64,000 bases of DNA from Frigoribacterium sp. CG_9.8 (GTDB taxonomy: Bacteria > Actinomycetota > Actinomycetes > Actinomycetales > Microbacteriaceae), in NCBI RefSeq assembly GCF_015751965.1, contig NZ_JADOVH010000003.1, forward strand, positions 248,001-312,000, written 5' to 3'. The first letter of the stretch is position 1; each line of letters begins with the position of its first letter. The notes beneath the pieces are model-generated. The model searched no databases, had not been told where the DNA came from, and was given only the letters and a program-made list of their open reading frames with translations. Shown here one piece after another: positions 19,690-32,576 of the stretch. The position numbers were made by a program, and so were the translations under genes.

Positions 19690-20504
19690 CACCGGGGCCG
19701 GGTACGACTGTCTCCCACTGGTTCTCCGACGGCTGGATCACCACGCGCCGCAACCTCATCAAGATCAAACGCGTGCCCGACATCCTCGTGTTCACGACGC
19801 TTCAGCCCATCATGTTCGTGCTGCTTTTCACCTACGTCTACGCGGGCGTGATCAATATTCCGGGCAGCAGCTACAAGGAATTCATCATGGCGGGCATCTT
19901 TGCCCAGACGATCGTGTTCGGATCGACCTACTCTGGCTCTGCCATGGCGCAAGATCTCAAGGACGGGATCATCGACAGGTTCCGAACGTTGCCGATGAGC
20001 CCGTCGGCCGTGCTGATCGGGCGCACGAACGGTGACCTGTTCATCAATGCGGTATCTCTCGTGGTGATGATGACGACCGGGTTCATCGTCGGCTGGCGCA
20101 TCCGCTCGAGCTTTCTCGAGGCACTCGGAGCAATCGCGCTGCTCCTGCTGTTCGCCTATGCCTTCTCCTGGGTGATGGCGTTTATTGGGATGAGCGTGCG
20201 CAGCCCCGAGGTCATCAACAATGTCTCGTTCCTTATTCTGTTCCCCCTCACCTTCGTCTCCAACGCATTCGTTCCCAGCGCCACACTGCCGACCCCGTTG
20301 CGAGTGTTCGCAGAGTTCAATCCGGTGTCTGCGCTCGTCTCTGCGGTGCGTAATCTCTTCGGAAACACTCCACCGAATTCCCCGATCGCTGATAATTGGG
20401 CCCAGCAAAACCCCGAGGTGGCCGTGTTGATTGGCATTCTCGTGCTGCTCGTGGTGTTCGTTCCGCTGGCGATACGTAAGTTCGCGAGTGTGAGCAGCCG
20501 CTGA
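19686..20504 (+). CDS. ABC-2 type transporter permease, DrrB family
   Basis: A 272-residue integral membrane protein with six helices. It shows the ABC-2 pattern DGIIDRFRTLPMSPSAVLIGR between TM2 and TM3 and FPLTFVSNAFVPSATLPTPLR before the last helix, the LTF(V/I)SNAFVP block being typical of DrrB-type permeases. It couples to the upstream ATPase through a 4-base overlap. The substrate is unknown; relatives export antibiotics and lipids. Confidence 0.93.
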   Translation: MTPGPGTTVSHWFSDGWITTRRNLIKIKRVPDILVFTTLQPIMFVLLFTYVYAGVINIPGSSYKEFIMAGIFAQTIVFGSTYSGSAMAQDLKDGIIDRFRTLPMSPSAVLIGRTNGDLFINAVSLVVMMTTGFIVGWRIRSSFLEALGAIALLLLFAYAFSWVMAFIGMSVRSPEVINNVSFLILFPLTFVSNAFVPSATLPTPLRVFAEFNPVSALVSAVRNLFGNTPPNSPIADNWAQQNPEVAVLIGILVLLVVFVPLAIRKFASVSSR

Positions 20505-20550
20505 GGGAACACCGAGGTTACTCCCACATTTGCTGGCTAATGTTAGGGAC

Positions 20551-21399
20551 ATGGATGTCGTTGCGATCACCGGTTCCACCGGGCACATTGGCCGATTGGT
20601 CGCCGACAAGCTCGCCGACCTCTCACCCACCCTTGTCGTGCGCGATCCCGCTCGGGCTCCGGCTATTTCAGGTTCGCACGTTGTCGTGGCGGACTACACG
20701 GATGCCTCCAATTCGGTCTACGCCCTCGACGGTGTCGACGTGTTGTTCATGGTCTCGGCGTCGGAAAACAAATTCCGCCGAGTTCAACACCGCACCTTCA
20801 TCGAGGCGGCAGCCACCGCGGGGGTGCGCCACATCGTCTACACGTCGTTCTTCGGGGCCGACCCTAACGCCGTCTTCACCCTCGGACGGGATCACGCCGA
20901 CGCCGAAGCCGCGATACGCGGAAGCGGAATGCAGTTCACCCTGCTGCAAAACAATTTCTACTCCGATCTAATCCCCTTCTTCGCCGACGAGTCCGGCGTT
21001 ATCCGCGGTCCAGCCGGCGACGGAAGGGTCTCCGCATTGGCGCGAGCGGATGTCGCCGACGTCGCAGCCCAAATTCTGCGCGATCCCGCCTCCCATGCCG
21101 GGGCCACCTATGAGCTCACCGGTCCCGAAGCGCTCTCGCTCGATGAAATCTCAACGCGTGCCGGTGCCGTGATCGGGCAACACCTCAGCTACACCCGTGA
21201 AACCGTCGAAGAAGCCTTCGCATCGCGCGCCCACTATGGAGCCGAACAGTGGCAGCTCGGTGCCTGGGTGAGCACCTATACGGCCATCGCCCAGGGAAAG
21301 ACCGAACGGGTGACAGACCACGTTGCACTCGTCACCGGGCATCCTGCGCGCACTATCGAAGAGTCTCTTACTGCGACGCTGCACCCGGTACGCAGCTAA
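20551..21399 (+). CDS. NmrA-like NAD(P)-binding oxidoreductase
   Basis: A 282-residue atypical short-chain reductase with the Rossmann motif AITGSTGHIGRLVADKL at the N-terminus and a VLFMVSASEN strand. It has RHIVYTSFFGADPNAVF and TLLQNNFYSDLI in place of a YxxxK dyad, the pattern of quinone reductase 2/NmrA-like proteins that sense or reduce with NADPH. ATG 20551 is preceded by AGGGAC, though the spacing is tight; an in-frame TTG at 20530 is less likely. The neighbours offer no pathway. Confidence 0.87.
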   Translation: MDVVAITGSTGHIGRLVADKLADLSPTLVVRDPARAPAISGSHVVVADYTDASNSVYALDGVDVLFMVSASENKFRRVQHRTFIEAAATAGVRHIVYTSFFGADPNAVFTLGRDHADAEAAIRGSGMQFTLLQNNFYSDLIPFFADESGVIRGPAGDGRVSALARADVADVAAQILRDPASHAGATYELTGPEALSLDEISTRAGAVIGQHLSYTRETVEEAFASRAHYGAEQWQLGAWVSTYTAIAQGKTERVTDHVALVTGHPARTIEESLTATLHPVRS

Positions 21400-21496
21400 C
21401 CGGTACTTCCGTCTGTTGAACGCAGTTGCGCACAAGCGCTGTGCGGAGGAACTGGGATTGCGGTTGGGCACCGAGGTCGCTGTCACACCACCATTC

Positions 21497-21524
21497 GCGA
21501 CGTCGGCTTCGGGCCGACGGTCGC
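21497..21524. terminator. Hairpin between convergent reductase and gamma-glutamyltransferase genes
   Basis: GTCGGC-TTCGG-GCCGAC with extra GCGA/TCGC pairing across a one-base bulge forms a stable GC stem with a UUCG-type loop just outside both stop codons. There is no T-run, so termination strength is uncertain. Confidence 0.55.
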
Positions 21525-21530
21525 GGTGCG

Positions 21531-23354
21531 TCAGCGTCCGGCCGCGTAGCCCTGTGAACCGCGCGGATTCGCCGCGGCGCTGAGCAGCCCAGTGCTGACG
21601 TCCCGGCCAACCGCGGAGAGCCTCCCGAGACTCCAGTCACCAGCCACGGTGACCCGGTGGCCACGACTTCGCAACTCGGCGATGACGTCCGCCCCCAGCC
21701 GCCCTTCGACTAGCGCAGCACCCGGCTGCCAGTTTCGCGGCCAGAAGGACTCGGGAAATGAGGTCGTGTGAAATGCCGGTGCGTCGATCGCTTCCTGCGG
21801 CGAATAGCCGCCGACCAGCGTGCGGAGAAGGTAGAGCAATTGCCACTGGTCCTGCTGGTCGCCACCGGGCGTGCCGAGGGCGGCGATCGGATGTCCGTCG
21901 CGCAACAGCATCGTCGGCGTGAGGGTGGTGCGTGGCCGCCGACCGGGAGCAAGAGCCGACGGGGCTATCGGGTCGAGCCACATCATCTGGAGTCGGCTGC
22001 CCAGACAGAACCCGAGCTCGGGGATTGTGGGGGAGGACTGCAGCCACCCTCCTGAGGGAGTCACCGAGATCATGTTGCCCCAGACGTCGACCACATCAAT
22101 GTGACAGGTGTCTCCGGCGGTGACCCCGGCGGGGGACACAGTCGGCTCACCGCTCCCGGCGAAACCCGTGTCGTCTGGCGCTGTGCCGGAGGGTTCGACT
22201 GCGACTCGCAGTGGCGGTCGGTACCCCTCCACGCCCGGCACCGAACCTGGCCGGAATTCACTCGACGCACGCTCGGTGACGAGGGCACGCCGTTGGTTCG
22301 CGTAGCCGGCAGAGAGCAAGTGCTGCAGCGGCACGTCCACGTCACCGTAGTAGGCCTCCCGATCTGCAAAGCTCAATTTCTGCACCTCGAGGATGGTGTG
22401 TGCACCCAGCGCTGTCGATGGATCGAGCTGGGCGTCATCGAAGCCGTCAAGAACGGCGAGGGATTGCAGCAGCGCCGGGCCCTGGCCCCACGCACCGGAC
22501 TTCGCGACGGTGACACCACGAAAATCCAGCGTGGTGGCCGGCTCATAGCTCGCCTGGAAATTCGCAAAGTCCTGCACGTCAATCACTCCCGCGTGATCGG
22601 TACCCGAGGAGTGACGGTGCTTCTCGCGCACGAACGTGGCCGCAGCATCCGCGACGAATCCGGTTCTCCAGGCCACGCGGGCGGCATCAATGCGGCCCTG
22701 GCGCGAGGTGGAGTCGCGCCCGGCAGCCACGAGCCGGTCGAGGGTGTCGGCATAGGCGGGGTTCATGAAGAGCTCGCCCGCGCGAGGAACCCTGCCCTGC
22801 GGCATCCACAGGGCGGCAGAGGTCGGCCAGTGTGTCGTGAAGAGTGCGGAGACACTGACAATTGTGGATCTCACCCGGTCGAGCAGTGGATGCCCGTGCC
22901 TGGCGTAGTCGCGGGCGAAGGCGAGTACCTCCTCGAGCTCCCAGCTACCATGATCTCTCAGCAGTAGCAGCCAGGCATCGACCGCACCGGGCACCGCAGC
23001 CGCCAGTGCACCGGCTCCCGGCACAAGATCCAGACCCTCGGCGAGATAGTGCTCGATCGTTGCATTTCGCGGCGCCGGTCCCTGCCCCATGAGCACTACC
23101 GGCTCCGACGGGTTGCCAGCCGTGGCGAAGATACCGACGAGGTCACCACCGGCACCGTTGAGGTGCGGCTCGACCACGTGGAGCACGAACGCCCCCGCAG
23201 TTGCAGCATCGAAGGCGTTCCCTCCGCGCTCCAACACCGCCTGGGCGGATGCCGTTGCGATCCAGTGGGTCGAGGCGACCATCCCGAAACTGCCACGGAG
23301 GGTCGGTCGGGTGGTCTGAGGATCGGCTGGGGTGAAGGGGGGCGCAGGAGTCAC
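21531..23354 (-). CDS. ggt: Gamma-glutamyltransferase family protein
   Basis: A 607-residue Ntn-hydrolase family member with GGT hallmarks: GMVASTHWIATASAQAVLERGGNAFDAA, GAGGDLVGI, and the autoprocessing Thr in TAGDTCHIDVVDVWGNMIS, which begins the small subunit. SVTPSGGWLQSSPTI and the C-terminal LGTPGGDQQ and LRSRGHRV motifs follow. The canonical Arg-binding residues of classical GGT are less clear, so it may be one of the cephalosporin-acylase/GGT-like members. No obvious signal peptide is seen. GTG 23354 is chosen; the frame is open upstream to a GTG at 23414, adding a His-rich stretch, so the start is uncertain. It is divergent from the DUF2834 gene. Confidence 0.85.
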   Translation of the reverse strand: MTPAPPFTPADPQTTRPTLRGSFGMVASTHWIATASAQAVLERGGNAFDAATAGAFVLHVVEPHLNGAGGDLVGIFATAGNPSEPVVLMGQGPAPRNATIEHYLAEGLDLVPGAGALAAAVPGAVDAWLLLLRDHGSWELEEVLAFARDYARHGHPLLDRVRSTIVSVSALFTTHWPTSAALWMPQGRVPRAGELFMNPAYADTLDRLVAAGRDSTSRQGRIDAARVAWRTGFVADAAATFVREKHRHSSGTDHAGVIDVQDFANFQASYEPATTLDFRGVTVAKSGAWGQGPALLQSLAVLDGFDDAQLDPSTALGAHTILEVQKLSFADREAYYGDVDVPLQHLLSAGYANQRRALVTERASSEFRPGSVPGVEGYRPPLRVAVEPSGTAPDDTGFAGSGEPTVSPAGVTAGDTCHIDVVDVWGNMISVTPSGGWLQSSPTIPELGFCLGSRLQMMWLDPIAPSALAPGRRPRTTLTPTMLLRDGHPIAALGTPGGDQQDQWQLLYLLRTLVGGYSPQEAIDAPAFHTTSFPESFWPRNWQPGAALVEGRLGADVIAELRSRGHRVTVAGDWSLGRLSAVGRDVSTGLLSAAANPRGSQGYAAGR

Positions 23355-23427
23355 GGTCTGCAAGTGTAGGCGCGTGTCGTGTGGGTGGCCGGGGTGCGAT
23401 TCGCTCGATTGCACGCATCATAGGAAA

Positions 23428-23823
23428 ATGACTACTCCTGACGCATCCCCGAATACCCGCACACCCGGCTCGCTCTCCCGGCACTGGACCCCACTGGCCA
23501 CCACCTATCTCGTGCTCGCCGTCGGTGGGCTGATCGGCACCTGGACGTTCAACATCTCCGCGATCGTGCAGATGCGCGATTTCATCGGTGACGTCGTGAA
23601 CAGCGGTCCGGCAGTGTCATCCCTCACGGTCGACCTGCTCGTCGTCGCGGTGGCCGGCAGCATCCTGATCATTGTTGAATCCCGACGGCTCGGTCTTCGG
23701 GGCGGCTGGATCTACGTGCTGCTCGCCGGGCTCACGGCGTTCGCCTTCGTGTTCCCGTTGTTCCTGGCAATGCGCGAGCGAGCCATCACGAAGCGACTGG
23801 CTGATGCTGCGGCGCTAACCTGA
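23428..23823 (+). CDS. DUF2834 membrane protein
   Basis: A 131-residue protein with three to four transmembrane helices. TYLVLAVGGLIGTWTFNI, a central SSLTVDLLVVAVAGSILI helix and RLGLRGGWIYVLLAGLTAFAFVFPLFL match the DUF2834 layout. Function unknown. ATG 23428 follows TAGGA. It ends 4 bases before the antiporter gene and is probably co-transcribed with it. Confidence 0.8.
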   Translation: MTTPDASPNTRTPGSLSRHWTPLATTYLVLAVGGLIGTWTFNISAIVQMRDFIGDVVNSGPAVSSLTVDLLVVAVAGSILIIVESRRLGLRGGWIYVLLAGLTAFAFVFPLFLAMRERAITKRLADAAALT

Positions 23824-23827
23824 CGCC

Positions 23828-24964
23828 ATGAGCTTCACCCTGCTCGCGCTCGTAGTGCTCGTCGGCCTCCTCGGTCCACTCCTTGCGGGCCGCCAGTCAT
23901 GACACCTGCCCGCCGTGGTGGGGGAGTTGCTCGCGGGGCTACTGGTCGGAGCATCCGGTCTTCGGCTACTCGACTCGAGTGAACCGACCTTCACCGTGCT
24001 CGCGGATGTCGGTTTTGCGCTCGTGATGTTTGTGGTCGGCTCGCATGTGCCGGTGCGCGACATGTCGGTGTGGAGGTCGCTTCGCCGGGGAATCGTGGGT
24101 GCGGCGCTGGTGGGAGTGCTCGCCGCTTTCGCGGGGATCGGTCTCGCGGATCTATTCGCAACGGGGCATGGAGCGCTGTACGCGGTGGTGATCGCCTCGT
24201 CATCCGCAGCTCTTGTCCTGCCGATTGTCGGCTCGCTGAAACTCGGCAACACGGCTCAACTGATCACACAAGTGGCGATAGCGGATGCGGTCTGCATCGT
24301 CGCTCTTCCGCTCGCGATCGACCCGGCGCGGGGGGCGACGACGGCTCTCGGTGCCTGTGCGGTGATCGCCAGTGCGGCGTTCCTATTCCTGGCATTGCGG
24401 CGGCTCGATCGCAGCGGCCTGCGCAAGCGGGTGCACCACCTGTCTGAGCGGCGCAAATTCGCCCTGGAAATGCGACTCAACCTTCTTGTGCTGTTTGGCC
24501 TCGCCGCACTCGCGCAATTCGCGCATGTCTCCGTACTCCCCGCCGGATTTTGCCTCGGACTCGTCGTGGCGGCGATCGGCGAGCCGCGGCGGCTCGCCCG
24601 TCAACTCTTCGGAATCACCGAAGGATTCTTCAGACCGCTGTTCTTCGTCTGGCTCGGCGCATCGATCAGTCTCTCCGAGCTCGGCAGAAACCCGGGAATG
24701 ATCCTGCTCGGACTCTGTCTGGGGGCAGCCGCGATTCTCAGTCATCTGGTCGCCAGGATCGTCGGCCAGCCGCTGCTTCTTGCTGTGGTGGCTAGCGGAC
24801 AGCTCGGGGTACCGATCGCAGCAGCGGCGCTCGGTACCCAGCTCCACCTGCTTCAGCCAGGAGAGGATGCCGCGCTTCTGATCGGGGCACTGCTCACGAT
24901 TGCGACGACAACCGTGGCCGCGAGTGTGCGCGCACGCCGCGAGTGCGCCGCGCTGGCGGCATGA
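23828..24964 (+). pseudogene. Cation:proton antiporter with in-frame TGA at codon 25
   Basis: The frame from ATG 23828 encodes a normal first helix (SFTLLALVVLVGLLGPLLAG). It meets TGA at 23900-23902 and continues in the same frame with HLPAVVGELLAGLLVGASG, which is the conserved second segment of CPA2 Na+/H+ or K+/H+ exchangers (PAVVGELLAG). The rest, to 24964, is intact with about 11 helices. A Trp (TGG) normally stands near this position, so a single TGG-to-TGA change would explain it. Either the gene is inactive, or translation restarts at GTG 23912/23915 to give a protein lacking TM1. There is no sign of selenocysteine insertion. Confidence 0.8.
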
Positions 24965-25180
24965 CCTGCGGCCTCGCCATCCGCTTCGGTTTTGATCCCT
25001 GTTTGCGTGTTGTCTACTTCCTGCCTGCTTGCTGCCTGCTTTCCGTCCGCACTGCGCCGCGAGCCGTCACAGCGGCCCTTCGGACTGCGCTGCCAGCGGT
25101 CGGGGCGCGCAGATTTCGTAGACTTCCATGTGCGGTCGAGTCCCGAACCCTATGACACCGCAGCGGAGGTGGACAGCACG

Positions 25181-25903
25181 GTGAAGTTACGGGTGACCTT
25201 TGGCGCCCTCCGGCTGCTGATGGCAGTTGTCTGCCTCCTGGCACTCATCTCCCGTTTTCTGTGGGGACTCGGCTCGGCAACCTTCACCCCGGGCAACTTC
25301 TTCGCCTATCTCACGATCCAGAGCAGCATTCTGTTCCTGGTCGTCACTGTCATTGCTGCAATTGTCACGCTTCGAGGGATGGATGATCCGCCCTGGTTGG
25401 ATCTGGCGCGAGCGACGGTGCTCAGTTGCACCGTCTCCTGCGGCGTGATCTTCGCCCTCATCGTCGAGCAGTCGGGCGAGCGCGGCTTTCGCATCGACGT
25501 GCCCTGGTCCGATGTCGTGCTGCATTTTGTGCTCCCAACCGTCGCAGTGCTCGACTGGATCATCGGGCCGGGCCGAGGTGTTGCCCCCTGGCGCAGCATC
25601 GCACTAGTTCTCGTGTTCATGATCGGTTGGGGATTTGTCACGCTGGTGCGTGGGCCGATCGTCGGCTGGTACCCGTATTTTTTCCTCGACCCGGCCCAGC
25701 TGGCGAATACGGGCCAGTTCTTGACCTACTCCACGATCGCTGTGCTGCTGTTCGGGGGAATTTCGGCCGCGCTGGTGGCCGCGAGTCGCTCCACGCCACT
25801 CGCCGAGCGCTGGGCAACGCGCTGGGCGGTGCGCGCGGTACTCAGTACGCCACGAACGGAGCAAGCGCAGTCATTACGGACTGGAGCAGGTCGTCGTCGC
25901 TGA
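25181..25903 (+). CDS. Pr6Pr-family membrane protein (copy A)
   Basis: A 240-residue protein with six predicted helices. FTPGNFFAYLTIQSSILF, VLHFVLPTVAVLDWIIGPG and RGPIVGWYPYFFLDP are the conserved blocks of the Pr6Pr (FAR-17a/AIG1-like) family, whose bacterial role is unknown; animal relatives hydrolyse fatty-acid esters of hydroxy fatty acids. GTG 25181 has GGAGGT about 10 bases upstream; GTG 25169 is an alternative. The last 62 bases overlap the end of the convergent amine oxidase gene. A paralogue lies at 27288-27974 on the other side of that gene. Confidence 0.85.
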   Translation: MKLRVTFGALRLLMAVVCLLALISRFLWGLGSATFTPGNFFAYLTIQSSILFLVVTVIAAIVTLRGMDDPPWLDLARATVLSCTVSCGVIFALIVEQSGERGFRIDVPWSDVVLHFVLPTVAVLDWIIGPGRGVAPWRSIALVLVFMIGWGFVTLVRGPIVGWYPYFFLDPAQLANTGQFLTYSTIAVLLFGGISAALVAASRSTPLAERWATRWAVRAVLSTPRTEQAQSLRTGAGRRR

Positions 25904-27239
25904 GTTTGGCCACGCGCCGCGCTGCCTTCCCCCCGACGATTCCCACCAGTACCGGTTCGCCGGTAATTGCCTGGAGGTTAACCCAGTCGGTGATATCGCT
26001 ATCGGTTCCGACGAGACTCCAAATCGCCGCATCCGTCGACCAGAATGGCGTGTCGAAGCGCAACCAGACCGTTTCGATTGATCCCATACCCAGTGCGCTA
26101 ATCGCACTGCGATGGGTGAATGGGAGCAGCGGATCGAAGGCAATCGCGTTCTTTTTCAGCACCCCGAGAGGCACGGTGATCACGACACGGTCTACGGTCA
26201 GCGATTCACCGGTGCCGAGCTTGAGGCTCACGGCGGAGCCGCCATGCGACACGCCGAGCACCGCGGTCGACAGTGACACCCGTACCCCCTTAAGGGCATC
26301 AGCGATCACTCCTGAGAAGCCGCCGGTGACGATCCTGTCTCGCGCGGGCAGATCCGCCAGCCCGTACCAGGCGGATAGTTGCGACGCGTTGGCCCCGGTA
26401 TTGCCGGCGAGCGAGGAGAGAGCCGCAGTGAGCAGATCGGCACCGGCAAGGCCACCAACAGAAGCCCCGGCTGCCTTCGCCACCGCTCCCGACCCGTCGA
26501 GGGCCGCAGTGAGTGAAGAATCCGCGGGTTGCGCTTCGGCCCAGGTCGATGCAGTCGCGACAGCAGATGAGCCGATGGCGTTGCTGGCGCTTCGCCCAGT
26601 CGCTCCCACTGCGAGCAGGTCGGTGAGTGAATTAGTTTCGGTGCCGAGATTCGCCAGGCGCGTAAGGAGCGACTGATCCTCCACCGCTGAGAGTCGCCAC
26701 GCTCCCAGCTCAACGTCGAGTGGCCAAGACTGCGGTGTCCGGGTGTGAATGCGACCGCCCACTCGGTCCCGGGCCTCAAGCACAATCACGTCAAAACCCT
26801 GCAGCACGAGCGCGCGCGCCGCTTCGGCCCCCGCTGCTCCTGCTCCGACGACCGCGATCTTCTCGCCGGACGATGCCACCCCAAGCACTTCGGTTGCAAC
26901 CCGGGCGCCGGATTGCTGGGCACCGAGCACCGTTCCCGCGAGATCGGCAGAGGTCGCCTCGCCCGCGAAGAACACCCGGCCGCCCACCGGCCGGGACAGG
27001 TCATCACGATGCTGGGGGGTGGATCCAGGGGCGAGGAAACTCTGGGACCCGCGCGCGAACGGATCACTCGACCACGAGCTCCGCTCGATTCCCGAGGGTG
27101 CAGGCACCGCCGATGACGGGGTGGGGGAGGGAATGGCCGACGTGGTTGGGACAGGAGATTTCTCGGTGCACGCCGTCACGACGAGCAGGGAAAGACCTGA
27201 CCCTGCCCCGAGGAGGAAACTGCGGCGGCTGAACGACAT
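25842..27239 (-). CDS. Circularly permuted flavin monoamine oxidase-like protein with Tat/lipoprotein signal
   Basis: A 465-residue protein. Residues 1-24 read SRRSFLLGAG... VVTAC, a twin-arginine signal ending in a lipobox Cys24, so it is probably folded with FAD in the cytoplasm, exported and lipid-anchored. A Ser/Pro linker follows. Residues 56-119 (WSSDPFARGSQSF ... GRVFFAGEATS ... GTVLGAQQSGARVATEVL) are the segment that ends normal amine oxidases. Only then come the normal N-terminal FAD motif IAVVGAGAAGAEAA (128-141) and VLEARDRVGGRI (153-164). The protein stops at LAPFVAY, just where WxxDPFARGS would normally continue. Each half is present once, so this is a permutation, not a duplication. 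The polyamine/amine substrate is unknown. Confidence 0.88.
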   Translation of the reverse strand: MSFSRRSFLLGAGSGLSLLVVTACTEKSPVPTTSAIPSPTPSSAVPAPSGIERSSWSSDPFARGSQSFLAPGSTPQHRDDLSRPVGGRVFFAGEATSADLAGTVLGAQQSGARVATEVLGVASSGEKIAVVGAGAAGAEAARALVLQGFDVIVLEARDRVGGRIHTRTPQSWPLDVELGAWRLSAVEDQSLLTRLANLGTETNSLTDLLAVGATGRSASNAIGSSAVATASTWAEAQPADSSLTAALDGSGAVAKAAGASVGGLAGADLLTAALSSLAGNTGANASQLSAWYGLADLPARDRIVTGGFSGVIADALKGVRVSLSTAVLGVSHGGSAVSLKLGTGESLTVDRVVITVPLGVLKKNAIAFDPLLPFTHRSAISALGMGSIETVWLRFDTPFWSTDAAIWSLVGTDSDITDWVNLQAITGEPVLVGIVGGKAARRVAKLSDDDLLQSVMTALAPFVAY

Positions 27240-27287
27240 CTCAGCGCCACTGTACCCGCAAAGAGCATCAGACCGGGGCCGTACGAC

Positions 27288-27974
27288 TCAGGATGCGGTG
27301 TGCTCACGCCGTGCGGTGATATGCGCGAACCCGATTGCGACCGCCGCTACCACCACGATGAAGGCCGCTATCCCGACGATGTAAATCAGAAGGCTCGGGA
27401 TACCTCCCGGCCCTGCCGGCTGCAGAAATGGGTACGGATACCAGCCGGTGATGGCGCCTCGGATCATTGTGAATGCCAGCCAGGCGAGAGGGAATGACAC
27501 GACAAGCCACAGCCTCTTGAACGGCACCCGAACACGACCGGGTGCCAAGAACCAATCGAGCACGATGAAGATCGGCACCCATACATGCATGACCTCGTTG
27601 CACCAGCGCGGGGGTTCGTAACTCCCGTCGCCCGGCAGGTTGCGCAACAGCACGTTGTAGACGACTCCCGTGATCACCGCATAGGAGAGGATGGCGACCC
27701 GCACGCTGGTGAAAAGTTCAGTATCCCTCGGCAGACGAAGGGCCAAAAAAGCCCCGACGAGCAATACGACCACGTTCATCATGCTGGATTCGATGGTGAA
27801 GTAGCTGAAGTATTCCCCGGGCGTAAAGGCGTTGTTGAGGATCTTTGCCACCACCTGGGTGATGAGCGCGGCGAGAACCAGCAGCCCCATCATCAGTCGC
27901 GCGATCGCGAACACCCGACGCAGGGTGGGCACTCCGGTGTGCGCAGGGGCATCCACTGTCGTCAGGATCGTCAT
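27288..27974 (-). CDS. Pr6Pr-family membrane protein (copy B)
   Basis: A 228-residue six-helix paralogue of copy A at 25181: FTPGEYFSYFTIESSMMN, VMHVWVPIFIVLDWFLAPG and RGAITGWYPYPFLQPA align block by block with it. ATG 27974 is preceded by GTGGGGAG with very short spacing; the open frame continues upstream to 28136, but without family similarity. It lies directly upstream of, and on the same strand as, the permuted oxidase, 48 bases apart, so the two may form an operon. Confidence 0.85.
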   Translation of the reverse strand: MTILTTVDAPAHTGVPTLRRVFAIARLMMGLLVLAALITQVVAKILNNAFTPGEYFSYFTIESSMMNVVVLLVGAFLALRLPRDTELFTSVRVAILSYAVITGVVYNVLLRNLPGDGSYEPPRWCNEVMHVWVPIFIVLDWFLAPGRVRVPFKRLWLVVSFPLAWLAFTMIRGAITGWYPYPFLQPAGPGGIPSLLIYIVGIAAFIVVVAAVAIGFAHITARREHTAS

Positions 27975-28121
27975 CTCCCCACGATAATGTGCCCCACTAG
28001 CGGTATTAACCAGTGCGAATGACACCCAGCTTTTCCCCAGCAACCATGGGGCGCCTGCGTGAGCACCGACATCCTCCCTCCAGAACACACGAGTTTCTCG
28101 CGATCTGTTTAGGCTGGCCGG

Positions 28122-28628
28122 ATGCCACTGCCGCAAGTTTGCGTCTGTTACCTGCTCCAGCCGGGTCCCGATGGTGAGCGCGTGCTGCTCGGGCGGAAGA
28201 AGCTCGGACTCGGTGAGGGCAATCTCGTGGGGCCCGGCGGGAAAATCGAACCGGGTGAGACACCCGAACTGGCAATCCGGCGGGAGGTCATGGAGGAGGT
28301 CTCTCTGCTGCCCGGCCGCGTCGAGCTAATGGGCGATCTCACATATGAGTTCCCCTTCCGACCGGCGTGGAGCCAAAGGTCGTGGGTGTTTCTGTGTCGC
28401 GACTGGCAGGGCGAACCGCGCGAGTCAAATGAACTGAGTCCCGAATGGTATCCGGTAGCCGACATGCCGACCGCGAGGATGTGGGATGACGCCCAGTACT
28501 GGGTGCGTGATGCCCTGGCCGGTCGGTTCGTGAGAGCGACATTTCGGTTCGGCGCTGATCTGCGCACCGTGTCGGCTTCGGATCATCCAGCATTCGCACC
28601 GGGGTCCGCAGGAAACACGCGCTTGTAG
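28122..28628 (+). CDS. NUDIX hydrolase
   Basis: A 168-residue protein with the Nudix box GGKIEPGETPELAIRREVMEEVSL (written here only to mark REVMEE as the catalytic metal-binding core) at about residues 33-56. The usual penultimate Gly is Ser here. The fold and the RAWSQRSWVFLC / SPEWYPVADMPTARMWDDA segments resemble MutT/MTH1-type (8-oxo-dGTP) enzymes, so nucleotide-pool cleaning is a fair guess. The 3' end overlaps the convergent HTH gene by 46 bases. Confidence 0.87.
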   Translation: MPLPQVCVCYLLQPGPDGERVLLGRKKLGLGEGNLVGPGGKIEPGETPELAIRREVMEEVSLLPGRVELMGDLTYEFPFRPAWSQRSWVFLCRDWQGEPRESNELSPEWYPVADMPTARMWDDAQYWVRDALAGRFVRATFRFGADLRTVSASDHPAFAPGSAGNTRL

Positions 28629-29050
28629 GAGCGGCCATCCTCGAGCGTCACGGTGGTAGCCCGCAGTGTTCCGCGGCTGATGCGCAAATACACCGCTTGC
28701 GCCGTCAACCCGAGTGCACGCGCGGTGTCGGCCACCGACTGACCGGGGAGATCGGCGGGCACGCTGCTGGGGCGGGAAGAACGTTTGCGGCCGGCTGCCT
28801 GGCGGTCAGCGATCTGGTCATCGGTGCCCTGCCACCGCCATTTCGCGGCGGCGACTCCGAGGCCAGCCGCATCCGCTACCGTCTCCCAGGTCGCGTCGGC
28901 CGCGAGAGATTCGCGCACCGCCGCGAGCAGTGCGGGTTCTCGTTCGAGGGCGGCGGAAGCGTGCCGCACCGCCGCGACGCGCTCCAGCGGGTCGATGGCT
29001 TCCGCCAGGGCAGCAATGGCACGCCGGGATGCACCCGACAGGTACGTCAT
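28583..29050 (-). CDS. Putative helix-turn-helix protein, function unknown
   Basis: A 155-residue, Ala/Arg-rich protein. The C-terminal SVADTARALGLTAQAVYLRISRG stretch (about 115-137) has the spacing of a HTH used by sigma-70-like or excisionase regulators; an N-terminal second HTH-like helix pair (TWETVADAAGLGVAAAKWRW) precedes it. A role as a small transcription or recombination factor is only an inference. ATG 29050 overlaps the mycoredoxin stop by 4 bases (ATGA), so the two genes are co-translated. Confidence 0.72.
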   Translation of the reverse strand: MTYLSGASRRAIAALAEAIDPLERVAAVRHASAALEREPALLAAVRESLAADATWETVADAAGLGVAAAKWRWQGTDDQIADRQAAGRKRSSRPSSVPADLPGQSVADTARALGLTAQAVYLRISRGTLRATTVTLEDGRSYKRVFPADPGANAG

Positions 29051-29334
29051 CGACCGGCGGAAGCCGCATCCGACAGGCGCGCCTGTACAGTCGCGAGCGA
29101 GGGGTTGGTGGCAGAGGAGCCGTCGGGAAAAATGAGGGTCGGAACAGTTTGGTTGCCGCCGTTGACTTCGGCAACCAACTCGGCTGTGCCCTCTACCTCC
29201 TCGATGTTGACCTCGGTGTAGGCAATACCGGCGCGATCGAGCTGACCCTTCAGGTTGCGACAGTAGCCGCACCAGGTAGTAGAGAACATCAGTACGGAAC
29301 CGGCGGGTGGAGTGAATTCGGCAACAGTAGGCAT
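29047..29334 (-). CDS. Mycoredoxin (glutaredoxin-like thiol oxidoreductase)
   Basis: A 95-residue thioredoxin-fold protein with active site WCGYC (residues about 21-25), the cis-Pro loop TVPTLIF and a final SSATNPS block, all features of actinobacterial mycoredoxin-1. It reduces mycothiol mixed disulfides. It precedes the HTH gene with a 4-base overlap. Upstream, at 29388-29435, is a 16-bp tandem repeat in the promoter region. Confidence 0.93.
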   Translation of the reverse strand: MPTVAEFTPPAGSVLMFSTTWCGYCRNLKGQLDRAGIAYTEVNIEEVEGTAELVAEVNGGNQTVPTLIFPDGSSATNPSLATVQARLSDAASAGR

Positions 29335-29387
29335 AGCTCGAGCCTACGACGGGACGCTGGTGGTTATCGCAGGCTTCGGCCCGTGCC

Positions 29388-29435
29388 TCTCGATGCCCGT
29401 AACTCTCGATGCCCATATCTATCGATACCCGATCT
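29388..29435. repeat. 16-bp tandem repeat (x3) upstream of the mycoredoxin gene
   Basis: Units TCTCGATGCCCGTAAC, TCTCGATGCCCATATC and TATCGATACCCGATCT follow one another between the divergent mycoredoxin and DarT-like genes. They could be an operator array or a slippage product. Confidence 0.7.
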
Positions 29436-29540
29436 GACACCGCGAAACAGAGCATGTGACGTGACTTGGTGTAATGATGCACTTTCTGCGCAAAACGTCC
29501 GTAAAATTAGGAGGGACCCTGTTACCAACGGGGGCCGTAA

Positions 29541-30359
29541 ATGAAGGGTTGTGCAGTGGTCGAATGTATTCATGGACTCGAGGCGGGCCTGTGTGACCAG
29601 TGCTTCCCCAAAGCCGCCCCGGTGCTTGAAATTGTCACCGCAGCCGGTCAGCGAAATGCACGAGCTAAGGCTGCCGTCACCAGACGGGCCGCATCTGCTG
29701 CGACGAAGACCGTGGAGAGCGTCGGCGACCAGCGCATCTATCACCTGACCCACATTCGTAACCTCGCCAGCATCCTTGCCTCGGGTGCGATCCTCGCCGA
29801 CGGCAATGAAACCTGGGCCACAGACCCGTTGGTGAATCTCTCGTCCGCCGAGAACAGGGAGTCACGACGCAGCACCGCCGTGTCGGGGCTCGGCAGCTCA
29901 AATGTGGCCGAGTTCGTGCCCTTCTTTCTTGTACCCAACTCGACCATGTGGGAGGACATCCGCTCGGATTCCCTCGATCCCCGCCTGTCAGCCCACTCCC
30001 GTCACGTTAACGTGGCCGACTTCGTCATCCTGGTGAGCACACTCACGAAAGCGACCGAGCACACCGAGGACGGCGCGATTGTGGTCGCGGATGGCGACGC
30101 TGCTCATGTGCTGACGCGCTTCGCCGCCTCCACCGAGTCGAGCGAGCGGATGCTGCGCCGCCTCCGAGCCGACGACAACGCCGAAATCATCGTCGAGGCC
30201 GAACTGCTCGTCAAGCACAGCCTGCCGTTCGAATTGGTGACCCTGATCGGTGTTGCCAACGATCGTGTGCGCGATGAAGTGCGTTCACTGCTCAAGTCCT
30301 CGGCCCACAGCACAAAGGTTTCGGTCTATCCGCCCTGGTTCCAAAAGCCAGGGTCCTGA
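29541..30359 (+). CDS. DarT-like (DUF4433) ADP-ribosyltransferase-fold protein with N-terminal zinc motif
   Basis: A 272-residue protein. Residues about 9-22 carry CIHGLEAGLCDQCFP (Cys-x-His ... Cys-x-x-Cys), a likely zinc knuckle. From residue 65 the DUF4433/DarT fold begins: IYHLTHIRNLASILASG (the YHxTHI NAD-binding motif), then FVPFFLVPNSTMWEDI, matching the VPFYFxPRSPM block, and a VEAELLVKH strand carrying the candidate catalytic Glu. DarT enzymes ADP-ribosylate thymidine in DNA and are toxins paired with the macrodomain antitoxin DarG. No macrodomain gene is adjacent, so this may be a solitary or differently controlled member. Confidence 0.8.
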   Translation: MKGCAVVECIHGLEAGLCDQCFPKAAPVLEIVTAAGQRNARAKAAVTRRAASAATKTVESVGDQRIYHLTHIRNLASILASGAILADGNETWATDPLVNLSSAENRESRRSTAVSGLGSSNVAEFVPFFLVPNSTMWEDIRSDSLDPRLSAHSRHVNVADFVILVSTLTKATEHTEDGAIVVADGDAAHVLTRFAASTESSERMLRRLRADDNAEIIVEAELLVKHSLPFELVTLIGVANDRVRDEVRSLLKSSAHSTKVSVYPPWFQKPGS

Positions 30360-30404
30360 CCGGCATCGGCAGCTCCACGACGGCAATTGCGTGTCGGTGA
30401 TCAG

Positions 30405-31178
30405 GTGCTGACCGCAGGGGTAGATCTGGCGGCAGAGCCTCGCGGAACCGCGTTGGCCGTTATCGACTGGTCGGGAACGACTGCCCGCGTTGTCGAACTG
30501 GAAGCCGGAGTGAGCGATGTGCGAATCGCATCCCTCGCACCGGACGTCGCATCTCTCGGCATCGACTGTGCTTTCGGTTGGCCGGACGACTTCGTGGCAT
30601 TTGTCACCCGCCATGCTGCGGGCGATCCGCCGCACCGTTCCGAGGGCGAGCTGACCGGATCGGGCATGGAGTGGAGACGGCGACTCGCCTACCGCGAGAC
30701 TGATCGCGCGACGCGCATGCAGACCGGGCGCTGGCCGCTGAGCGTCGCAACCGATCGGCTCGGCCTCACCGCCATGCACTGCGCCGCGCTGCTCCACTCC
30801 CTGTCCACAGTGATCGGAGCCATCGACCGGTCGGGCGGTGGTGTTGCGGCGGAGGTATATCCGTCGGCAACTCTTCGGCTGTGGGGCTTCTCCACCGTCG
30901 GATACAAAGCGGATCCCGCAATCAGGGCAACACTTCTCGGTGCGATCCAGCAGCGAGCGCCATGGCTCGAGCTCACGCGAGTGGCGGATCTCATGACGGC
31001 GTCGGATGACGCCTTCGATGCGGTTATCGCCGCTCTCGCCGCCCGGGCACATGCGCTCGGAAAATGGCACCGACCACCGCCCGAATCGCTTGAGCGGGCC
31101 GGCCGGGAGGGCTGGATTGTCCTGCCTGCGGTGGATCTTGCCGAGCTAAAGCCCAGCTCTTGGCCGGGCGCGGCGTAA
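30405..31178 (+). CDS. DUF429 protein (RNase H-like fold, function unknown)
   Basis: About 257 residues. TAGVDLAAEPRGTALAVIDW at the N-terminus is the first strand and acidic residue of an RNase H-like fold. GIDCAFGWPDDFVAFV, the RxxTYRETDR-like LAYRETDRATRM and LSVATDRLG match DUF429. Predicted nuclease-like, not demonstrated. GTG 30405 places the start just before the fold; TTG 30387 is possible. It follows the DarT-like gene by about 45 bases and may be in the same transcript. Its TAA is part of an 18-bp repeat. Confidence 0.8.
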   Translation: MLTAGVDLAAEPRGTALAVIDWSGTTARVVELEAGVSDVRIASLAPDVASLGIDCAFGWPDDFVAFVTRHAAGDPPHRSEGELTGSGMEWRRRLAYRETDRATRMQTGRWPLSVATDRLGLTAMHCAALLHSLSTVIGAIDRSGGGVAAEVYPSATLRLWGFSTVGYKADPAIRATLLGAIQQRAPWLELTRVADLMTASDDAFDAVIAALAARAHALGKWHRPPPESLERAGREGWIVLPAVDLAELKPSSWPGAA

Positions 31179-31223
31179 ACGGCCCACGCGGCGTAAACGG
31201 CCCGAGCGGTCTAAACGGCCCGC
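31170..31223. repeat. 18-bp tandem repeat (x3) that copies the DUF429 gene stop codon
   Basis: Units GCGGCGTAAACGGCCCAC, GCGGCGTAAACGGCCCGA and GCGGTCTAAACGGCCCGC. The TAA in the first unit (31176-31178) is the stop of the upstream gene, and the next two units repeat it in the same phase. Confidence 0.95.
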
Positions 31224-31253
31224 CCTGTTCTCACCAGCTCGGGCGACCGCCTC

Positions 31254-32576
31254 TCAGAACCAGATGCTGAGCCAGGGGGTGACCGGCGATCGGAACGATG
31301 CTTCGAGGGATGCGGCCGAGCCCGGACGCAGTTCGGTGACGCGACCGGCCCGGACCAGGGTGATCGGCGAGACACCGCCGAGGTACAGCGCTCCGAGATC
31401 GTCGACTGTGAGTGCGATCGCGGCCGCGTCATCCGGCGCCTCACCCGTAAGCAGCTCGACGCTCGCGCTGCCATCCGCCACGACAGTGAGCAGGAACAGG
31501 CCATCAGCGAACCCGAGGTCGTCGCTTACATCGAGCACGAAAATGCCTGGCGCGCTGTAGCGGCGAGCAGTCAGCGCGACCGGAACATCCAGGATGCGCG
31601 TCCACAGGTGTTCCCGCACACCGGTTCGCCGAACGGCGCGTTGATCGGAGAGCTGCCAGAGCAGAGGCTCATCGATCGTGCGCAACGGTGCAGAGATCGT
31701 GGAGACGAGATCTATTTCCAGCAGAAAATGCCAGAGACCGGCATACGCCTCATCGGTGGCTGACACGAGATAGGCTAGGTCGAGACGGTGACTGGTGAAG
31801 TCCTCGCCGATCTCGACGACCCGGTAGGCGGCGAATCCCTGCAGCTCGCCCTCATCGTCGTCGTAGCGCACGACTCGCAGGCTCTTGGTTGACTCCGGGT
31901 CGCCGTTCACGCCAAGAAGCCGCTCCCACAGGATGCCGGTGAACTTGACCTGCCCGGGACTCTGCAGCCGCACTCGCTGCACCAGGTCATACCCGTCCGA
32001 GAGCATCGTCTCTGGCTCGACGAAGCTCAGGGTTCCGGATGCCTCGGGGCCGATCCAGCGCGCCCGTGTGGTGTCGATAGTCCAGTCGGCGCTCATTACC
32101 GAGGGTCCGAATCCGTAACGGCCGTAGATTGTGGCCTCGGTGACGGTGAGAACCGCAACGGGCACGTTCAGAGAGGCTGCCGTTCGCAGTTCGGCCTCGA
32201 GCAGTGCACGGCCGATACCCCGGCGGCGATGAGTGGGGGAGACCGAGACGGCGGTGACAGCCCAGGCCGGGATGCTCCTCTCGCCCGGAACGGTGAGGTC
32301 CATCACCCAGGTGCTCACGGTGGCTACCGGGGAGGCGGCATCCGCAGAGTCGGGATCCCAGACCCCGGTAGTGCGACGGTGCGCAATGTGGGGGAGCTGC
32401 ACCTCGAGCTTCGACTGTGGCAGCCGCGCTCCGTGGAATCCGCGATTCTCGGCCTGGAGCCAGGTGGCCAGCGCTTCGCTGTCTGAGGTGTCGACCAGGG
32501 CGAGGTCGAGACCCTGGGTGGCGAGGCGTTCGGCTGAGACGGCATCGAGAGGAGCTGCGGCATATTCGTATTTCAC
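31254..32576 (-). CDS. Eis-like GNAT N-acetyltransferase
   Basis: A 440-residue protein of the Eis architecture: an N-terminal GNAT domain with acetyl-CoA loop VSVSPTHRRRGIGRALL (residues about 109-125) and VTEATIYGRYGFGPS, where the Tyr is the general acid. A second GNAT-like domain and a C-terminal sterol-carrier-like domain follow. The chain ends in SIWF; the free carboxylate of a terminal Phe acts as base in Eis enzymes, so this intact end supports activity. Eis proteins acetylate amines, including aminoglycosides. ATG 32576; divergent from the aminopeptidase gene. Confidence 0.9.
   Translation of the reverse strand: MKYEYAAAPLDAVSAERLATQGLDLALVDTSDSEALATWLQAENRGFHGARLPQSKLEVQLPHIAHRRTTGVWDPDSADAASPVATVSTWVMDLTVPGERSIPAWAVTAVSVSPTHRRRGIGRALLEAELRTAASLNVPVAVLTVTEATIYGRYGFGPSVMSADWTIDTTRARWIGPEASGTLSFVEPETMLSDGYDLVQRVRLQSPGQVKFTGILWERLLGVNGDPESTKSLRVVRYDDDEGELQGFAAYRVVEIGEDFTSHRLDLAYLVSATDEAYAGLWHFLLEIDLVSTISAPLRTIDEPLLWQLSDQRAVRRTGVREHLWTRILDVPVALTARRYSAPGIFVLDVSDDLGFADGLFLLTVVADGSASVELLTGEAPDDAAAIALTVDDLGALYLGGVSPITLVRAGRVTELRPGSAASLEASFRSPVTPWLSIWF

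Follow-up and report, generated by a model that had tools for sequence, protein, structure and literature searches.

A naturally circularly permuted flavin amine oxidase-like protein of Frigoribacterium sp. CG_9.8, with a predicted export signal and relatives in Actinomycetota

The 64,000-nucleotide stretch of Frigoribacterium sp. CG_9.8 DNA analysed here (hereafter the window) carries, on its reverse strand at 25842–27239, a gene for a flavin amine oxidase-like protein whose GEAT block stands ahead of its GxGxxG motif. Is this reversed order real, how did the protein come by it, and which chemistry would it support? The original prediction had proposed a circularly permuted, lipoprotein-anchored enzyme. 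The gene and its segments lie where that prediction had placed them: WSSDPFARG starts at residue 56, FFAGEAT at 90, VVGAGAAG at 130 and EARDRVGGR at 155, and the chain ends with LAPFVAY.

In a phmmer search against sequences of the Protein Data Bank (PDB), residues 126–460 aligned with residues 337–692 of LSD2 (76.9 bits) and residues 44–118 with LSD2 699–773 (33.4 bits), the second piece of LSD2 being the first piece here. The protein scores 186.9 bits with the Pfam profile PF01593, well above the curated cut-off of 19.8. A genome profile search placed profile positions 367–443 at window positions 26883–27113 (55.1 bits) and positions 6–367 at 25839–26822 (130.4 bits), a match that extends 3 bases beyond the stop codon with one TGA counted by the tool. 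The two halves occur in swapped order, without duplication, and share position 367 as their cut point. No PF01593 match in N-to-C order was found within the chain, 367–443 lying upstream of 6–367, and because of this swap we file the protein as a permuted variant and not as a standard member of the family. With the same model, a canonical relative (locus L125) gave a single unbroken stretch from 1 to 443, and the permuted relatives L083, L123 and L151 were matched in two, two and three stretches. Since homology tools report an amine oxidase while splitting the protein into pieces, annotation hides the order of the blocks. The FAD (flavin adenine dinucleotide) motifs GxGxxG, ExxxRxGGR and GEAT are all present, and 38 homologues conserve them fully or almost fully. 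At the level of sequence, these data establish natural circular permutation in the window protein, a member of the flavin amine oxidase superfamily (MAO/PAO/LSD fold): the last approximately 75 canonical residues, part of the FAD site, precede the Rossmann core via a short linker, and the chain has been re-opened in the loop ahead of WSSDPF.

Relatives were collected in several searches. A family search gave matches in 103 of 299 genomes at E ≤ 1e-30; most match rows begin at residues 1–5 and reach about residue 463, some are shorter, and those of at least G031, G105 and G214 begin at 120–128, as expected of canonical members. A pattern-based scan of genome contigs considered the best 80 of 349 candidates encoding a relative, and those among them with an organism given are actinobacterial. 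Using separate hidden Markov models (HMMs) for core and tail, a first classing of 166 open reading frames (ORFs) yielded 135 permuted, 27 canonical and 4 unclassed. After addition of a class-level search (64 of 394 genomes at E ≤ 1e-50), 192 related ORFs were classed as 159 permuted (130 distinct) and 33 canonical (31 distinct); the window's own locus is among them, and the use of permuted queries biases the numbers towards the permuted form. Counting homologues of the same order in Microbacteriaceae had been suggested as a check. Double-tail or tandem-duplicate intermediates were not found among the 192 classed ORFs. In the permuted ORFs listed, from locus L115 on, the tail HMM scores 47.7–116.4 bits ahead of the core, which excludes a chance match of the tail block. 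The distance from the tail end to GxGxxG is 11–17 residues in all 130 distinct permuted ORFs and exactly 12 in 91 of them. Between the window gene and that of L006, dN/dS was 0.072/1.07 in the tail and 0.147/1.54 in the core, with dS of the tested pairs near saturation; three further pairs agree. Clearly, as far as such comparisons reach, the permutation is conserved and under purifying selection.

Permuted ORFs are not confined to the window's own genome family f1, which is Microbacteriaceae by its named relatives. They occur in f5, f21, f29, f31, f70, f87, f88, f105, f112, f116 and f119, f34 holds a partial one (L133), and match spans suggest that f121 probably holds some as well. Permuted relatives in named records include IMCC26207 and a Nocardia metagenome-assembled genome (MAG). 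Two MAG contigs labelled Bifidobacterium breve (L085, L112) encode a permuted protein with an IMCC26207-like start and end; mislabelling or mis-binning probably accounts for this. G142 carries both orders by HMM classing (L121 permuted, L139 canonical), and G078, G258, G296 and G930 do so by match span only. From this spread the permutation appears to be old. Beyond Actinomycetota, coverage consisted of the pattern-based contig scan and a plasmid set, and we claim no absence elsewhere; the plasmid set gave one remote match, in Haloarcula, to query residues 147–459.

The prediction of the fold, also proposed as a check, yielded a confident AlphaFold2 model of the permuted chain (pLDDT 89.8, pTM 0.86), and a signal-free relative of 408 amino acids was modelled with pLDDT 92.2 and pTM 0.91. 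In the window model, helix 104–121 continues into strand 127–131 across the new junction. Because the C-terminal helix of this fold terminates next to the first Rossmann strand, a short linking segment can join the former ends, and the permuted chain would fold as a normal two-domain FAD enzyme.

The export signal is a separate matter. Twin-arginine translocation (Tat) lipoprotein features are present in the window protein, with an RR motif, a hydrophobic stretch and a lipobox cysteine (SRRSFLLGAGSGLSLLVVTAC), and 38 permuted homologues keep R5, R6 and C24 almost without exception (90% or more). By pattern, RR plus lipobox was found in 126 of 134 permuted and 5 of 27 canonical ORFs, with ORF starts assigned mechanically; two further canonical ORFs, L125 and L126, show both by eye. 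Canonical relatives with Tat/lipobox signals include L125, L127 and L154. Among permuted ORFs, L111, L150–L153 and L170 have no signal visible by eye, and L180, L181 and L185 begin in a Tat-like manner but lack a lipobox. A predicted export signal is thus common, yet it does not follow from the permutation. The proposal that the new N-terminus gained an export signal holds for the predicted signal itself, not for its tie to the rearrangement. The Tat pathway in general exports folded proteins; the window protein would leave the cell folded with its FAD and be tethered by Cys24 to the outer face of the membrane. Taken together, model and sequence make a permuted, FAD-folded and exported protein very probable.

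That the order is an assembly error, or a stray C-terminal fragment fused ahead of a truncated oxidase, has only the unusual arrangement itself in its favour, and we consider it negligible: 130 distinct ORFs, spread over many genomes, show this order with each block present once, and the Pfam halves meet at one position. An assembly error, named beforehand as an outcome that would overturn the permutation, is excluded by these ORFs, and together with the low dN/dS and the confident models they bear out a permutation rather than a fusion. The number of origins is less clear. Unconstrained best trees of core plus tail need 3–4 changes of the order label, so that more than one origin is possible, and 0% of 200 bootstrap trees have only one change. 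Several permutations might have occurred independently at the same loop, in the window clade (with the Nocardia-type rows), in the f119/f116/f112 clade and in the signal-free L150–L153 group. We regard this as rather unlikely, as one permuted clade was not rejected in approximately unbiased (AU) tests (p 0.104 with 58 rows, 0.153 without L150–L153, 0.26 with 53 rows), the linker length is common to all permuted ORFs, the cut loop looks alike by eye across the permuted groups and the deep branches of the trees are weakly supported. A single origin is by these trees neither shown nor rejected; the order probably goes back to an ancient duplication or re-opening of the chain within Actinomycetota and then passed down vertically, with losses on the way. 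The L150–L153 proteins, of about 410–420 amino acids, start at the new cut point and keep the flavin-facing lysine discussed below, and can be seen as near-minimal permutants.

Is the window protein still an amine oxidase? The designation held for fold and family, not for the flavin-facing lysine of LSD/PAO/MAO-type oxidase chemistry, which was not found in the window protein: in the alignment with LSD2, Thr390 stands opposite the LSD2 lysine. This site is K in all 27 distinct canonical ORFs tested (the four added later are left out of the count). In contrast, 119 distinct permuted ORFs have 39 K, 40 T, 9 S, 8 V, 6 R, 5 L, 5 A, 3 Q, 1 M, 1 C and 2 gaps, and including later loci K is found in 48 of 127. 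The lysine is replaced in most Microbacteriaceae permuted members; the 24 listed rows from outside this family have 22 K and 2 R. On a quick tree the site changed at least 7 times. As cited in PMC3184146, K661A abolishes LSD1 activity and K300M slows flavin reduction by maize PAO 1400-fold. In nicotine flavoenzymes, according to PMC12272882, changes restraining this lysine separate oxidases from dehydrogenases using cytochrome c; the parallel is loose because those enzymes keep the lysine. We infer that the window enzyme is probably not a standard O2-using amine oxidase.

Two genes of the Pr6Pr membrane protein family flank the oxidase gene (Table 1); their products are 35% identical over 181 residues. 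PF04750 (FAR-17a/AIG1) matches the upstream one just above its cut-off (27.5 versus 24.5 bits) and gave no match to the downstream one; both are recognized by the Pr6Pr model NF038065. A convergent Pr6Pr gene lies within 700 nucleotides (nt) downstream of 93 of the 130 distinct permuted ORFs and of 0 of the 31 distinct canonical ones. Among the remaining 37 permuted ORFs, 33 have none, 1 has it on the same strand and 3 are without flank; some of the 33 (e.g. L043, L046, L054, L068, L084) have a downstream Pr6Pr gene at greater distance. Where an opposite-strand Pr6Pr gene was found (100 distinct permuted ORFs), 55 overlap at the 3′ end, 25 are 0–100 nt apart and 20 lie beyond, although these stop-to-stop distances are rough: −1782 and +730 (L006) are false values, so at least one of the overlaps and one of the 20 are false, the L006 match ending inside the oxidase gene in contradiction to +730. 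Pr6Pr copies on both sides of the oxidase occur at L006, L007, L035, L114 and the window locus L115. A search for a solved structure of the Pr6Pr neighbour gave a single match, which at E 1.3 we regard as fortuitous. Pr6Pr proteins have conserved Y-L/F-T and L-H motifs that resemble, by eye only, mutant sites of AIG1, which PMC11139994 describes as a hydrolase of fatty acid esters of hydroxy fatty acids (FAHFA) with the catalytic-domain mutants T43A and H134A.

Table 1. Features of the permuted oxidase gene and its Pr6Pr neighbours (window coordinates)
Feature	Position	Strand	Basis
CDS, circularly permuted flavin amine oxidase-like protein, 465 aa, ATG start	25842..27239	-	ORF, PF01593 and PDB-sequence matches
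Residues 1-24, Tat-type RR motif and lipobox VTAC (Cys24)	27168..27239	-	sequence; homologue conservation
Residues 44-120, relocated C-terminal FAD-binding block (WSSDPFARG..FFAGEAT..GTVLGA..SGARVATEVL)	26880..27110	-	phmmer, tail HMM, PF01593
Residues 121-125, new junction, old C-terminus joined to old N-terminus	26865..26879	-	linker-length survey and model
Residues 126-462, Rossmann and substrate-domain core, up to the point at which a canonical chain would enter the FAD block	25854..26864	-	phmmer, model, structure alignment
Thr390 at the flavin-facing lysine site (aligned with K of LSD2)	26070..26072	-	alignment; canonical ORF comparison
Pr6Pr family membrane protein gene, convergent, overlapping the oxidase 3′ end; true start probably downstream of 24992	24992..25903	+	NF038065, 110.9 bits
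Second Pr6Pr membrane protein gene, directly upstream, co-directional with the oxidase	27288..28136	-	NF038065; PF04750 match

Our best guess for the role is a membrane-surface flavin dehydrogenase or an altered amine oxidase. Loss of the lysine in the window's branch might have led to a dehydrogenase-like or altered-substrate enzyme at the membrane, perhaps acting with the adjacent Pr6Pr protein; this is the least certain step and is put forward tentatively. A bolder proposal, which we think improbable in its entirety, is that one ancient permutation founded a phylum-wide, mostly exported flavoenzyme family, whose Microbacteriaceae members gave up the O2/flavin lysine several times over and came to serve as the redox half of a module at the membrane surface, together with the AIG1-like Pr6Pr protein, passing electrons to a membrane acceptor and not to O2. 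Several observations weigh against our preferred explanation, from the FAD fold of the permuted chain to its Pr6Pr partner. The sequential structure aligner compared only residues from about 119 to 465 (TM 0.65), and the best trees place the permuted rows in several places. Cryobacterium permuted members keep the lysine and mostly also adjoin Pr6Pr, so that lysine loss and Pr6Pr partner do not track. Pr6Pr genes are common, being present in 259 of 299 family genomes, so that adjacency and not presence is the signal, and none was found beside permuted ORFs with flank outside Microbacteriaceae, many of these loci having only about 1.5 kb of flank. This abundance and this absence rule out Pr6Pr as an obligate or general partner.

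They also fit an ordinary extracytoplasmic amine oxidase with a neutral permutation and a gene order retained by chance, all the more as the downstream pair is convergent and not an operon. This is a serious contender, short of probable: the two genes stay adjacent even among divergent Microbacteriaceae in which Pr6Pr identity falls to about 36–40%, a second Pr6Pr copy stands on the other side in the window's lineage, and the lysine is lost in its branch. Thr390, and the T, S, V, L, A, R or Q at this site in most Microbacteriaceae members, could instead point to a degenerate relative, or one that binds FAD without catalysis, retained as a lipoprotein scaffold. This we find unlikely in view of the conserved FAD motifs and the low dN/dS in both pieces; moreover, superfamily enzymes can switch electron acceptor rather than die, as stated in PMC12272882.

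How does the proposed membrane-surface flavoenzyme compare with known systems? LSD2 and LSD1 (KDM1B/KDM1A) have the amine oxidase domain in canonical order and carry extra domains; the LSD2 lysine stands where the window protein has Thr390, and only the latter has an export signal. Maize PAO, FMS1 and the bacterial MAO 8p84, all known oxidases, share its fold and FAD motifs. PAO and FMS1 differ from it in their canonical order, as judged from the chain ranges of structure alignments, and 8p84 is likewise canonical. NctX and NicA2 are, according to PMC12272882, nicotine flavoenzymes of the same family, not all of which use O2; NctX proteins are predicted lipoproteins, and the genes are described as paired with a cytochrome c gene, whereas the window gene neighbours Pr6Pr and its product lacks the lysine. 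The canonical actinobacterial Tat-lipoprotein amine oxidases L125, L127 and L154 share family, signal type and phylum with the window protein. They differ in order, keep the lysine and have no Pr6Pr gene in the approximately 1.25 kb of flank searched.

Among the titles listed in searches of the open-access literature, none points to a permuted amine oxidase, and we know of no other natural circular permutant in this superfamily. Enzymes of this type are familiar, and their blocks in this order are new within the reach of these searches; for a two-domain flavoenzyme fold, natural circular permutation would in our judgement be out of the ordinary. Since one phylum, and at least one genome (G142), harbours both the permuted and the canonical form, the cost and benefit of the rearrangement lend themselves to direct study. 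Repeated lysine loss within one permuted clade also provides natural pairs on the choice between O2 and other acceptors.

Outside Microbacteriaceae, a glycolipid-binding protein gene (PF06475) lies directly downstream of, and co-directional with, the permuted oxidase at two loci (L106:5360-5938 and L108:5238-5864), and other neighbours of permuted genes encode an alpha/beta hydrolase (L083) and an esterase (L111). These hint at lipid or ester work and are too few to use. Rfam gave no match within window positions 20000–32000, and a promoter and terminator scan found one promoter-like and three terminator-like sites, little above shuffled sequences. An ordinary gamma-glutamyltranspeptidase gene lies at 21531–23414 on the reverse strand (363 bits). 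A forward-strand gene for a DarT-like single-stranded DNA ADP-ribosyltransferase (PF14487) at 29541–30359 is followed by a DUF429 gene at 30387–31178.
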